The translations under genes were made by a program, and so were the position numbers. A stretch of DNA of 40,694 nucleotides from Terriglobia bacterium (lineage in GTDB: Bacteria; Acidobacteriota; Terriglobia; Acidiferrales; UBA7541): assembly GCA_020072805.1 (NCBI GenBank), contig JAIQGC010000061.1:1-40694 (forward strand), in the 5' to 3' direction. Shown in pieces: positions 25,296-29,604 of the stretch (positions are counted from its first letter, which is position 1; the number at the start of each line of letters is the position of its first letter). The notes under the pieces were generated by a model. That model ran no database searches. It had not been told where the DNA came from and saw only the letters and a program-made list of their open reading frames with translations.

Positions 25296-26747
25296 ATGTC
25301 TGTAACAAAACGTCATGGAAATCCCCTTGTGCTCGCGCTGGGCGGGATTTTTTTCGCCATTTTCGCCATTTTCGCCATTTTCGCCATTTTCGCCGCGGTT
25401 CCGCAAGCGGCGGCGCAGGGAGGAGAGCCGTCTTCTTTCGCGATTCGCGGTGCGCGCGTCGTTGCGGTCTCCGGCCCGATCCTGGAGGAAGCCACCGTGG
25501 TCGTCTCCCGCGGGATGATCGTGGCGGTGGGGAAGGACGCTGCGATACCCTCCGAAGCATGGATCATTGACGGCAAGGGATTGACAGTTTACCCCGGCCT
25601 GATTGACGGCTTGACCGACGTTGCCCTCCTCTCCGCCGGCGTCGCTCCCGGCAGGCTGGCCGCCGAGATCTCTCCCGCGCACGCGCCCCAGCCCGCCGCG
25701 AGCGGTCCCGAAGACCGTCCCGGGGCCACGCCCTGGCGCAGTGCCGCCGATGAAGCCACGCTCTCCGACAAGCGCATCGAAAGCTGGCGCGAAGCCGGGT
25801 TCACTACGGTCGTCGCCGCGCCCAAGGATGGAATCTTCCCGGGGCAGGCCGCGGTGCTGAATCTTGCTGGGGATCGCCCTGGGGGGATGGTGGTGAAAGG
25901 GGCGGTGGCCGTGCCCCTCTCGCTCAACCCCGTAGGGAGCTTCCGCAGCTTCCCCGGCTCGCTTATGGGCGTGCTGGGATACGTGCATCAAGTTTGGCTG
26001 GATACGGAATGGTACAAGCAAGCTTCCGCTGGCTACGCGAAAAATCCGCGCGGGCAGGCCCGTCCGGCCTATGACCGCAGCGAAGCGGTCCTGCAGCAGG
26101 CGCTCGATAGCAAAGCGCTGGTGCTGATCCCGGCGAACAACTCGGTGCAAATCCGCCGCGCACTCGCTCTGGCCGAGCGCTGGAAGGTGCGCGCGGTGCT
26201 CTATGGCGGGCAAATGGGCTACGAAACCGCCGGCGAGATCGCCGCCAAAAAGATTCCCGTGCTGGTGAACCTGCAGTGGCCGGAGAAGTCCAAGGACGCC
26301 GACCCCGATGAGCCGCCCACGCTGCGCGTTTTGCGCTTCCGCGACCGCGCGCCCTCCGCCCCCGCGGCGCTCGCCAGGGCCGGCGTAAAGTTTGCCTTTT
26401 ACTCCGGCGCGATCAGCGCTCCCAAAGACATCTTGAAAGCGGCCAGGAAAGCGGTGGACGCCGGCCTGGCCGAAGACGCGGCTCTCCGCGCGCTCACTCT
26501 TTCACCCGCGGAAATCTTCGGCGTGGCCGACCGCCTGGGCTCGATCGAAGCCGGGAAAATCGCCAACCTAATTGTCGCCGACGGCAGCCTCTTTGCGGAA
26601 AAGACCAAAATCAAAATCGTCTTCGTGGACGGCCGCAAATTCGAAATTCGCGAAACGCCCAAACCCGCCGAACCTACGAAAAACGGTCCTACGGGAGAAA
26701 AGCCCGCCGAAGAGTTCGCTCTTCCCATGGCCGGAGGTGCCCAGTGA
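25296..26747 (+). CDS. Exported amidohydrolase-fold protein lacking the HxH metal site (probable pseudoenzyme)
   Basis: 483 residues with a signal peptide whose core is the repeat FAIFAIFAIFAA. The fold is clearly amidohydrolase: N-terminal composite domain (FAIRGARVVAVSGPILEEAT), VYPGLIDGLTDVALLS, and C-terminal ALTLSPAEIFGVADRLGSIE with AGKIANLIVADG. In active enzymes the segment reads PGLIDxHxH; here Leu106 and Asp108 replace both His. The later His positions (LIPANN, VLYGGQMG) and the strand-8 region (FAFYSGAIS) are also changed. The mature protein should be periplasmic or secreted. GAGGAG lies about 10 nt before the ATG. It is the first of three genes joined by 4-nt GTGA overlaps. Confidence 0.88.
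   Translation: MSVTKRHGNPLVLALGGIFFAIFAIFAIFAIFAAVPQAAAQGGEPSSFAIRGARVVAVSGPILEEATVVVSRGMIVAVGKDAAIPSEAWIIDGKGLTVYPGLIDGLTDVALLSAGVAPGRLAAEISPAHAPQPAASGPEDRPGATPWRSAADEATLSDKRIESWREAGFTTVVAAPKDGIFPGQAAVLNLAGDRPGGMVVKGAVAVPLSLNPVGSFRSFPGSLMGVLGYVHQVWLDTEWYKQASAGYAKNPRGQARPAYDRSEAVLQQALDSKALVLIPANNSVQIRRALALAERWKVRAVLYGGQMGYETAGEIAAKKIPVLVNLQWPEKSKDADPDEPPTLRVLRFRDRAPSAPAALARAGVKFAFYSGAISAPKDILKAARKAVDAGLAEDAALRALTLSPAEIFGVADRLGSIEAGKIANLIVADGSLFAEKTKIKIVFVDGRKFEIRETPKPAEPTKNGPTGEKPAEEFALPMAGGAQ
25351..25394 (+). repeat. 9-nt tandem repeat inside a signal peptide
   Basis: Four perfect copies of TTTTCGCCA and a fifth differing in its last base run head to tail. The unit is a multiple of three and encodes FAI/IFA, so copy-number changes lengthen or shorten the hydrophobic core of the signal peptide without a frameshift. 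Confidence 0.95.
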
Positions 26748-28240
26748 GCTGCTTCGTGAACCGCACCCTGAAGCGCACAAAGACGCAACCCGCGATGCCC
26801 CTGGCCAATCGTTCCGCTGCGCGAACGCTCCTGGCCGCCGGCCTGCTGTTTTTCTCGGCCTGCGCAGTCCACGCCGCTCCGCCCGATGCCGCCCCGGTGA
26901 TTCTCATTCGCAATGCCACGCTCCTCACCGTTTCTCACGGCACCATCGAGCATGGCTCCGTGCTGATCCGCGACGGCAAAATCGCCGCCGTCGGCCAGAA
27001 AATCGAGGCCCCCGCGGGCGCGCAGGTGATTGACGCCACCGGCCAGTTCCTCATGCCCGGCATCATCGATTGCCATTCGCACATCGCCATCGAAGGCGGC
27101 GTCAACGAAGGCAGCGTCTCCGTCTCCTCCATCGCCGATGTGGCCGAAGTCATTGATCCGGACGATATGGACATTTACTACGACCTCGCCGGCGGCGTCA
27201 CCTCCTCCAATATCCTTCACGGCAGCGCCAACGCCATTGGCGGGCAGACCATCCTCATCAAGCTGCGCTGGGGCCAGCCTGCCGATCGCCTGCCCTTCGA
27301 AGGCGCTCTGCCGGGAATCAAGTTCGCCCTGGGCGAAAATCCCAAGCGCTCGAACTTCTCCTTTCCCGGCGCGCCCAAGCGCTATCCCGCCACGCGCATG
27401 GGCGTGGAAGAAGTCATCCGCGCGGCCTTCACCGAAGCCCGCGATTACAAAAAGAAACTCGACGACTACAACCGCCGCCTCAAGGCCGGCGAAAAAGACC
27501 TGATCGCTCCCCGCACCGACCTGCGGCTCGAACCCCTCGTCGAAGTTCTCGAGGGCAAGCGTTACGTCCATGCGCACAGCTACCGCGCCGACGAAATCGT
27601 GATGCTTCTGCGCGTGGCCCGGGAGTTCGGCTTCAAGGTGCGCACTTTTCAGCACGTTCTCGAAGGCTACAAAGTCGCCGACGAGATCGCCGCCTCCGGC
27701 GCGAGCGCTTCCACCTTCTCCGACTGGTGGGGTTATAAGATGGAAGCCTACGACGCTATCCCCTACAACGCCGCGCTCATGACCCACCGCGGCGTGCTGG
27801 TCAGCATCAATTCAGATAGCGGCCAGGAAGCCGCTCACCTCAATCAGGAAGCGGCGAAAACCATGAAGTACGGCGGCCTCTCCGAAGAGGAGGCCCTCAA
27901 GCTCATCACCCTCAACCCCGCCATTCAACTGGGCGTCGAAAAACGCGTGGGCTCGATTGACCCCGGCAAGGACGCCGATCTGGTTCTCTTCAATCATCAT
28001 CCGCTCAGCGCCTATGCCGTCGCGCAGATGACCTTCATTGACGGACGCATTTACTTCGACCGGCAGCGCGACATTGCCGGCCGCGCCACCCTGCAAAAGG
28101 AAAAAGACGCCCTGATCGAGAAAGAGAAGAAGGTGGCCGCGGCCAAGGAAAAGTCCGCCGAGAAAAAGCCGGAAGAGAAGAAATCGGACGAGAAACCCAA
28201 ACCATCCTCGGCCGGCTCGGCCAAGGGAGGCGCACAGTGA
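26744..28240 (+). CDS. Exported metal-dependent amidohydrolase, catalytic member of the triplet
   Basis: 498 residues from GTG 26744, which overlaps the previous TGA and follows GGAGG by 8 nt. ATG 26795 is an alternative start. An N-terminal export signal (ARTLLAAGLLFFSACAVHAA) is present; the Cys within it may instead be a lipobox-like site, but the context is weak. The metal site is intact: MPGIIDCHSHIAIEGG with His111 and His113, further His in KRYVHAHSYRADE and TFQHVLEG, and the strand-8 Asp in VSINSDSG. The C-terminal TLNPAIQLGVEKRVGSIDPG with DADLVLFNHHP resembles imidazolonepropionase-like enzymes. A Lys/Glu-rich tail of about 45 residues follows. The substrate is unknown; a cyclic amide or dipeptide-like compound is plausible. 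Confidence 0.9.
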   Translation: MSCFVNRTLKRTKTQPAMPLANRSAARTLLAAGLLFFSACAVHAAPPDAAPVILIRNATLLTVSHGTIEHGSVLIRDGKIAAVGQKIEAPAGAQVIDATGQFLMPGIIDCHSHIAIEGGVNEGSVSVSSIADVAEVIDPDDMDIYYDLAGGVTSSNILHGSANAIGGQTILIKLRWGQPADRLPFEGALPGIKFALGENPKRSNFSFPGAPKRYPATRMGVEEVIRAAFTEARDYKKKLDDYNRRLKAGEKDLIAPRTDLRLEPLVEVLEGKRYVHAHSYRADEIVMLLRVAREFGFKVRTFQHVLEGYKVADEIAASGASASTFSDWWGYKMEAYDAIPYNAALMTHRGVLVSINSDSGQEAAHLNQEAAKTMKYGGLSEEEALKLITLNPAIQLGVEKRVGSIDPGKDADLVLFNHHPLSAYAVAQMTFIDGRIYFDRQRDIAGRATLQKEKDALIEKEKKVAAAKEKSAEKKPEEKKSDEKPKPSSAGSAKGGAQ

Positions 28241-29604
28241 GGAGCGCACGCATGATTCGCGGAACTCGTTGGACGACGCTGTTGGCCGCAGGCATTCTGG
28301 CCGCGGGGATCGCCATTCCCAACATGGCCCAGACTCAAGCCCAAACCAGGCTCGCAACGGTCTATGCCATCACGCACGCCAAAATTTTCACCCTCGCTGG
28401 CGCACCCATCGATGACGGCACCATCATTTTCCGCGACGGCAAAATCGCCGCCGTTGGCGCCAAGGCCGAAATTCCCGCCGATGCCCAGGTGATTGACGCC
28501 ACGGGCCTGCAAGCTTATCCCGGCCTCTTCGATTCGCTCTCCCAGATGGGGCTGAGCGAAGTCGCCGCCGTCTCCTCCACCGTGGATTCCACGGAGACCG
28601 GCGATTTCAATCCGGACGTCGTCGCCGCCGAGGCCGTGCATCCCGCGAGCGAACACATTCCGGTCACCCGCGCCGCGGGCATCACTCATGCGCTGGCCGT
28701 CCCAGGCAGCGGCGGCTTTGACTCGGGCCGCGACAGCGGCGTGATCACCGGCCAGGCCTCCGCCATTCATCTCGCCGGATGGACGATGGAGGAGATGCTC
28801 ATCAGCAAGAGCGTGGCCATGGGCCTGGACTGGCCCACGATCGAGACCCGCACCTTCGACCTCTCCACCTTTAGCCGGAAGGACAAGCCCTACGCCGAGG
28901 CCAAGAAGGAGTACGAGAAAAAACTCGACGAACTGGCCGATTGGCTCGAACGCGCCCGCCATTACGCCCAAGCCCTGGAAAAAGGTTCGGCAGCCCGCTT
29001 CGACCGCGACGTTAAGCTTGAAGCCCTCGTCCCCGTCGTGCACGGCGAACTGCCCGTGCTGGTCTTCGCCTCCCGCGCCCGCGATATTCGCAATGCCGTC
29101 GAGTTCTGCGAAAAGCAGAAGCTGCGCATGGTCCTCGCCGGAGGCGATGAAGCCGCCCGCGTGAAAGACCTGCTCAAGGCCAGGGGCATTCCCGTGATCT
29201 TGGGCCCCGTGCAAAACGCCCCCGCGCGCGAAGACGACCCCTACGACCAGCCCATGGCCCAGCCCGCCGAACTGTCCGCCGCCGGCGTCAAGATCGCCTT
29301 CGCCAGCTTCGATAACTCCTTCGCCCGTCGCCTCGGCCAGCAGGCCGCCGTCGCCGTCGCCTACGGACTGCCCTATGACGAAGCCCTCAAAGCCGTGACC
29401 CTCTATCCCGCGCAGATCTTCGGCCTGGACAGGGAATTGGGCACGCTCGAACCGGGCAAACTCGCCAACCTCATCGTTACCAACGGCGATCCACTCGAAC
29501 TCACCACTGAGCTTCGCTTCCTTTTCATCAAGGGCCAACTCACGTCCCTGGAGAACAAGCACACCCGCCTCTACGACAAATACCGCAACCGCCCCAAACC
29601 CTGA
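28237..29604 (+). CDS. Exported amidohydrolase-fold protein lacking the HxH metal site (second probable pseudoenzyme)
   Basis: 455 residues from GTG 28237, coupled to the previous gene by a GTGA overlap with GGGAGG upstream. Signal peptide WTTLLAAGILAAGIAIPNMAQ. The family frame is evident (YAITHAKIFTLAGAPIDDG, IIFRDGKIAAVGAKAEIPA, and C-terminal LYPAQIFGLDRELGTLEPG). At the metal site it reads YPGLFDSLSQMG, with Leu101 and Gln103 in place of the two His. The later His positions (VLVFASRARD, MVLAGGDEAA) are lost as well. It is more like the first gene than the middle one in these losses. It probably forms a complex with, or regulates, the middle enzyme. Confidence 0.88.
   Translation: MRSARMIRGTRWTTLLAAGILAAGIAIPNMAQTQAQTRLATVYAITHAKIFTLAGAPIDDGTIIFRDGKIAAVGAKAEIPADAQVIDATGLQAYPGLFDSLSQMGLSEVAAVSSTVDSTETGDFNPDVVAAEAVHPASEHIPVTRAAGITHALAVPGSGGFDSGRDSGVITGQASAIHLAGWTMEEMLISKSVAMGLDWPTIETRTFDLSTFSRKDKPYAEAKKEYEKKLDELADWLERARHYAQALEKGSAARFDRDVKLEALVPVVHGELPVLVFASRARDIRNAVEFCEKQKLRMVLAGGDEAARVKDLLKARGIPVILGPVQNAPAREDDPYDQPMAQPAELSAAGVKIAFASFDNSFARRLGQQAAVAVAYGLPYDEALKAVTLYPAQIFGLDRELGTLEPGKLANLIVTNGDPLELTTELRFLFIKGQLTSLENKHTRLYDKYRNRPKP

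Follow-up and report, generated by a model that had tools for sequence, protein, structure and literature searches.

Amidohydrolase-fold proteins without a metal site are known from vertebrates, where the neuronal dihydropyrimidinase-related proteins (CRMPs) have been retained for non-catalytic roles. The closest solved relative of the three bacterial proteins described here (A, B and C) is 3ooq, an amidohydrolase of Thermotoga maritima which, unlike A and C, keeps its metal ligands; no paper naming 3ooq was found in the open-access literature searched. In Pseudomonas, one report (PMC7053772) describes a class A2 aspartate transcarbamoylase whose activity needs an inactive dihydroorotase-like chain.

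The window analysed here, a stretch of DNA of 40,694 nucleotides, comes from a 3.98 Mb genome (99.77% complete), in which it is contig 157; the nearest named relatives are Acidobacteria, e.g. Candidatus Acidiferrum typicum. It carries the genes for A, B and C side by side. Our main reading, to which we assign a probability of about 0.7, is that they encode an exported 1:1:1 heteromeric metallo-amidohydrolase in which B is catalytic and A and C are non-catalytic.

The gene trio and its family

The first-pass annotation had described three consecutive open reading frames with GTGA overlaps and ribosome-binding sites, and this arrangement was confirmed at positions 25296-29604:

Gene A: 25296..26747, forward strand; 483 aa, ATG start; predicted exported amidohydrolase-fold pseudoenzyme, Pfam Amidohydro_1 48.0 bits
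A-B junction: 26733..26747, forward strand; ribosome-binding site GGAGGTG, GTGA stop/start overlap of 4 bases
Gene B: 26744..28240, forward strand; 498 aa, GTG start; predicted catalytic amidohydrolase, Pfam Amidohydro_1 66.5 bits, 3ooq E 2.6e-61
B-C junction: 28223..28240, forward strand; ribosome-binding site AAGGGAGGC (GGGAGGC), GTGA stop/start overlap of 4 bases
Gene C: 28237..29604, forward strand; 455 aa, GTG start; predicted exported amidohydrolase-fold pseudoenzyme, Pfam Amidohydro_1 43.8 bits

A second plausible start for C is the ATG at 28252, which has AGGAG upstream. Where relatives have separate genes, most junctions show an NTGA overlap (A>B 58 of 83, B>C 69 of 94), and because the coupled arrangement recurs in this way, the GTG starts are favoured. 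The hydrophobic N-termini noted earlier on all three proteins were also recovered, with best 13-residue mean hydropathies of 3.02 (A), 2.28 (B) and 2.55 (C); export signals were judged here by a simple rule on hydropathy alone, and no signal-peptide program was run.

Two peculiarities of the A gene were observed. Within its signal peptide (25350-25395), a run of the nine-base repeat ttttcgcca reads FAIFAIFAIFAIF, a slippage-prone stretch. At its other end (26660-26747), the window A lacks the C-terminal GxW-motif domain of ~110 residues that is carried by sister A proteins of the genus (L054, L056, L057); it ends in the same GGAQ as they do, as if the domain had been lost internally and in frame. 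By a crude motif, the GxW domain follows 58 of 116 A domains, and it had no Pfam match in L054 or L142.

All three proteins pass the 25-bit cut-off of PF01979 (Amidohydro_1) at the scores listed above, and their mutual identity is 26-30%. The best solved relative of each is 3ooq (B 2.6e-61, C 2.1e-34, A 3.3e-19), and the alignment with B spans B residues 52-441. By these sequence comparisons, A, B and C are paralogues within one amidohydrolase subfamily whose nearest solved structure is 3ooq. For each protein, the 25 best NCBIfam models listed all stay under their cut-offs. The Xaa-Pro dipeptidase model NF051886, the best NCBIfam match for A and C, gave 43.0 (A), 59.5 (B) and 55.2 bits (C), far under its cut-off of 500, and the imidazolonepropionase model HutI (TIGR01224) gave 34.9, 64.5 and 39.1 bits in the same order against a cut-off of 298.15.

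The metal site, its loss and the ancestry of A and C

The metal ligands of the superfamily (HxH, Lys, His, His, Asp) are present in B and absent in A and C. The sites in the window are as follows:

His111-Ser-His113 of B: 27074..27082, forward strand; strand 1 metal ligands, context PGIIDCHSH
Lys193 of B: 27320..27322, forward strand; ligand column, strand 4, presumably carbamylated as in the superfamily
His278 of B: 27575..27577, forward strand; ligand column, strand 5
His304 of B: 27653..27655, forward strand; ligand column, strand 6
Asp358 of B: 27815..27817, forward strand; ligand column, strand 8
Former HxH site of A: 25605..25619, forward strand; D-G-L-T-D (PGLIDGLTD), entropy percentiles of the former His positions 92nd and 76th among 116 A domains
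Former HxH site of C: 28531..28545, forward strand; D-S-L-S-Q (PGLFDSLSQ), entropy percentiles of the former His positions 100th and 92nd among 117 C domains

At the places of B Lys193, His278, His304 and Asp358, the window A has Pro, Pro, Gly and Gly, and the window C has Gly, Phe, Gly and Phe. Sequence and alignment thus bear out the earlier statement that the HxH motif is intact only in the second gene and that A and C also lack the later ligands.

The same pattern was found across relatives, counted over domains that exclude those shorter than 330-340 residues. Of 114 B domains, 113 have HHKHHD in the ligand columns, the sole exception being one B-typed domain of L163 that keeps the Lys only. 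Among 99 A domains, 70 keep no ligand, 25 keep one and four keep two; the corresponding numbers for 111 C domains are 84, 23 and four. More than two ligands, or both HxH histidines together, occurred in 0/99 A and 0/111 C domains. In 69 further domains from other phyla and plasmids, all six ligands were present in 25/26 B domains, and more than two were kept in 0/16 A and 2/27 C domains. The three exceptions all come from one odd multi-copy cluster, L209: a B without the strand-6 His, and two C-typed domains with three and four of the six ligands, one of which has the HxH. In this cluster (L209 1-12190), at least eight amidohydrolase domains follow one another, some with an intact and some with a broken ligand set. 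Another unusual case is L163 (1170-8867), from a 2.1 Mb genome, with a series of five amidohydrolase frames: B, a B that lacks most ligands, a further B, C and a B=C fusion.

When L163, L209 and the two-part systems were excluded, all six ligand columns were invariant in 120 B domains, and Gly had replaced the strand-6 His in most A (91%) and C domains (85%).

The ancestry of the pseudoenzymes was examined in a tree of 91 rows, built with the ligand columns removed, with L163 and L209 left out, and rooted on 3ooq and four plasmid-borne active homologues. A (100/100), B (100/99) and C (100/99) each formed a single clade. The active B side (95/87) splits from the pseudoenzymes (99/96), and A lies well inside the pseudoenzyme side (100/98), where it adjoins C (92/89). 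The two pseudoenzymes had at first looked independent; the tree does not support independent losses, as a single branch separates all of its pseudoenzymes from the rest. On this tree, it is likely that one duplication was accompanied by a single loss of the metal site and that a second duplication then gave rise to A. The single loss is likely rather than proven, because fast-evolving rows may attract each other, the tree does not contain L163 and L209, and rival topologies were not compared by an AU test. B and C branch in partly mirrored order, the two-part systems included.

Co-occurrence, fusion and predicted structure

We examined how often the three genes occur together in 142 stretches, which were mostly picked for a C match, come in many cases from one genus, and include two (L170, L171) with none of the genes. 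All three were found in 112 of the 142 (111, plus L204, whose frame 5083 is C by profile and was reassigned to A by the tree). B and C only were present in 13 stretches, two of which (L092, L100) are cut by contig ends and have A elsewhere in the same genome, on a separate contig (L093, L110). A and B only were present in eight, six of them at contig ends; C lies 8 kb off on the other strand in L207 and on another contig in L208. C only was found in four: L105 is at a contig end, L140 has A-B elsewhere, L096 has broken frames without B, and L169 is a short contig without B. This leaves one stretch with a single B, two with odd clusters and the two empty ones. In 13 additional stretches, 11 had all three genes, one had B-C and one A-B. 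So far as tested, therefore, solitary homologues of A and C are not the usual case, and the proposal that one intact and two metal-less amidohydrolases are kept as a unit held up in these counts and in the natural fusions described below.

Acidobacteriota were sampled with 396 genomes. A C match at E 1e-20 was present in 191 of these (strong in 153), and a B match at 1e-95 in 162. All 162 fall within the 191, and 149 of them have a strong C match, i.e. about 1e-60 or better, a limit that was set because B can weakly match C. Eight of the 13 B genomes without a strong C match were inspected, and C lies beside B in 8/8. Four genomes have a strong C without B at 1e-95 (G068, G123, G321, G367); G068 and G123 do have a B adjoining C. 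Parted genes were seen in G350, with A-B on one contig and C inside another, and in G491, where ~8 kb and a change of strand separate A=B from C. C had no adjoining B in G047, where it is in broken frames, or in G144, where it is on a short contig. The phylum to which L022 (a Verrucomicrobia record) belongs had C matches at 1e-20 in 13/194 genomes, with three below 1e-60; for that of L024 (a Chthonomonadaceae record), the corresponding figures were 21/101 and four. The weaker matches in these two phyla include two-part systems and split matches. Lone B-like enzymes occur on Cytobacillus and Monoglobus plasmids, which indicates that the fold does not need partners.

Some copies of the genes have broken frames (L096, L102, L103, L192). 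In L192 (4469-8475), the trio is on a Hymenobacter volaticus plasmid, with A and B split into several frames. L019, a trio with a B=C fusion, comes from a metagenome bin with the label Actinomycetota, although the tree places its C with the window C; the label may be wrong.

Fusions were frequent. A=B=C in one open frame was found in ten stretches of two phyla: L118, L121 and L122, from one family of Acidobacteriota, and L196 to L201 and L215 (cut by a contig end) from the phylum of L024. The other fused layouts comprised A=B-C (16), A-B=C (14), B=C with A after it (four) and A=B with C at a separate place (two). One of the 16, L073, was set aside as fusion evidence because its frame crosses an assembly gap (X residues). 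By the hydropathy rule, and where enough upstream sequence was present, a signal-peptide-like stretch precedes the first domain of the frame in 88/109 A, 82/95 B and 86/92 C. By the same hydropathy limit, such a stretch is missing from 35/35 B=C linkers and 25/27 gap-free A=B linkers, in a set (28 A=B and 35 B=C frames) that includes broken or odd frames in L192, L163 and L209. These repeated natural fusions argue for contact and for 1:1:1 assembly.

AlphaFold2 models were obtained for the B-C fusion of L132 (pLDDT 84.5, pTM 0.86; alignment of 20 natural fusions including L132) and for the A-B fusion of L145 (pLDDT 84.8, pTM 0.85; alignment of 15 natural fusions). A pTM this high for two domains of similar size suggests that the domains are confidently placed relative to each other in both models, a score that refers to the fused chains of relatives only. 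The domains from these fused relatives matched the fold of 3ooq with Z 47.9 for B (2.1 A, 371 residues) and Z 47.2 for C (2.3 A, 366 residues).

Possible roles of A and C, and known systems

In the reading that we prefer, the separately encoded A, B and C would be exported, probably to the periplasm, and would assemble 1:1:1 into one heteromeric amidohydrolase. B would hold the sole metal site (His111, His113, Lys193, His278, His304, Asp358) and perform the hydrolysis. A and C, as amidohydrolase barrels whose metal site was lost long ago, would have been retained as structural or substrate-positioning subunits, on which B would now depend.

Three other accounts of A and C were weighed against this assembly. 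If A and C were decaying duplicates kept by linkage only, the broken frames mentioned above would fit, as would their pace of change: the mean amino-acid difference over 150 locus pairs from 89 loci was 0.577 for A and 0.537 for C, against 0.405 for B. However, omega over 14 near locus pairs, some of which have a locus in common, was far below 1 for each gene (A 0.065-0.192, B 0.031-0.212, C 0.052-0.197). A and C are under purifying selection, each is a single old clade, and their open frames are kept in three phyla. Decay, which was rejected on omega, is thus extremely improbable. Although faster than B, A and C change in step with it (correlations 0.905-0.937), for which shared species history alone would suffice.

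Purifying selection would equally be expected if A and C were separate proteins with new activities, as binding proteins or new enzymes, that belong to the pathway of B and share no complex with it. Strongly conserved acidic residues (Asp236 of A, 1.00; Glu108, Asp117 and Glu120 of C, 0.99, 1.00 and 0.99) also point in this direction. Glu120 of C is aligned with a Glu of B, and judging from the alignment, the acidic trio of C could in principle bind a metal. Against new activities, five of the six former ligand columns drift (68th-100th entropy percentile in 116 A and 117 C domains), neither set has a His or Cys with conservation of 80% or more, and the repeated fusions argue for contact, so that we regard this account as distinctly unlikely. 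A variant of the heteromer explanation is that A and C regulate B, e.g. as a ligand-responsive lid or inhibitor, and are not a plain scaffold. Pseudoenzymes elsewhere serve regulatory roles of the lid or inhibitor type, and the conserved acidic residues of C closely follow the old HxH site in sequence, whereas the variability of the old pocket speaks against a single conserved ligand at that place; regulation appears unlikely to us.

The neighbouring genes give few hints about the substrate. In the window, these encode a protein kinase with PD40 repeats, an AsmA-like protein and a biotin-synthase-like radical SAM protein, and they do not represent a lasting context, since the largest neighbour family common to at least four loci beyond the nearest relatives covers only 9/111 loci. 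In G003, of the same genus, an active/inactive pair (L081 2082-9121) lies on one strand between an S15 X-Pro dipeptidyl-peptidase and an S9 prolyl oligopeptidase, and in Qipengyuania citrea a two-part relative lies between a peptide transporter and an FKBP. No peptidase neighbours were found at eight more two-part loci, each partly scanned (L097, L101, L125, L159, L160, L194, L213, L214), and the substrate therefore stays a guess; a small peptide, perhaps with proline, is a rather doubtful candidate. A bolder extension of the preferred heteromer is that the trio is an exported three-barrel machine shared across phyla, in which two dead barrels, both derived from one lost enzyme, would line the active site of B in part or form its entrance; an enzyme still found alone in some other bacteria would thereby have been made obligately three-part, perhaps for proline-containing peptides. 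We consider this possible but somewhat short of probable.

The results suggest an undescribed exported three-part enzyme that is preserved, and often fused, in several bacterial phyla. The natural series of solo enzyme, two-part system, three-part system and single chain offers a way to ask how pseudoenzymes become necessary. The trio also carries a warning for annotation: two of its three proteins, which profiles assign to the 'amidohydrolase family', cannot use the usual metal chemistry.

After 3ooq, the next fold matches of the B domain are the amidohydrolase-type Xaa-Pro dipeptidases or prolidases 3n2c, 2p9b, 2qs8 and 3mtw (Z 24.6-26.2), which are tied with adenosine deaminases and others. 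CRMPs share the metal-less fold with A and C but are not known to be coupled in an operon to an active sister. In the open-access literature searched, where most subscription papers are missing, we found no description of an exported bacterial amidohydrolase with two dead paralogues that spans phyla and is repeatedly fused. The principle of enzymes with dead sister subunits is known, and this trio was not found described. The metal-dependent bile salt hydrolases of a 2026 preprint (PMC13081902) were considered and set aside, as these are different enzymes, of the Amidohydro_3 type. The Pseudomonas aspartate transcarbamoylase (PMC7053772) resembles the trio in that an inactive amidohydrolase-fold chain stands beside an active partner, with the dependence on that chain being, for the trio, our inference. 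It differs from the trio in that its active partner is a transcarbamoylase, whereas B is itself an amidohydrolase, and in that it has one kind of pseudo-chain rather than two and serves pyrimidine synthesis.
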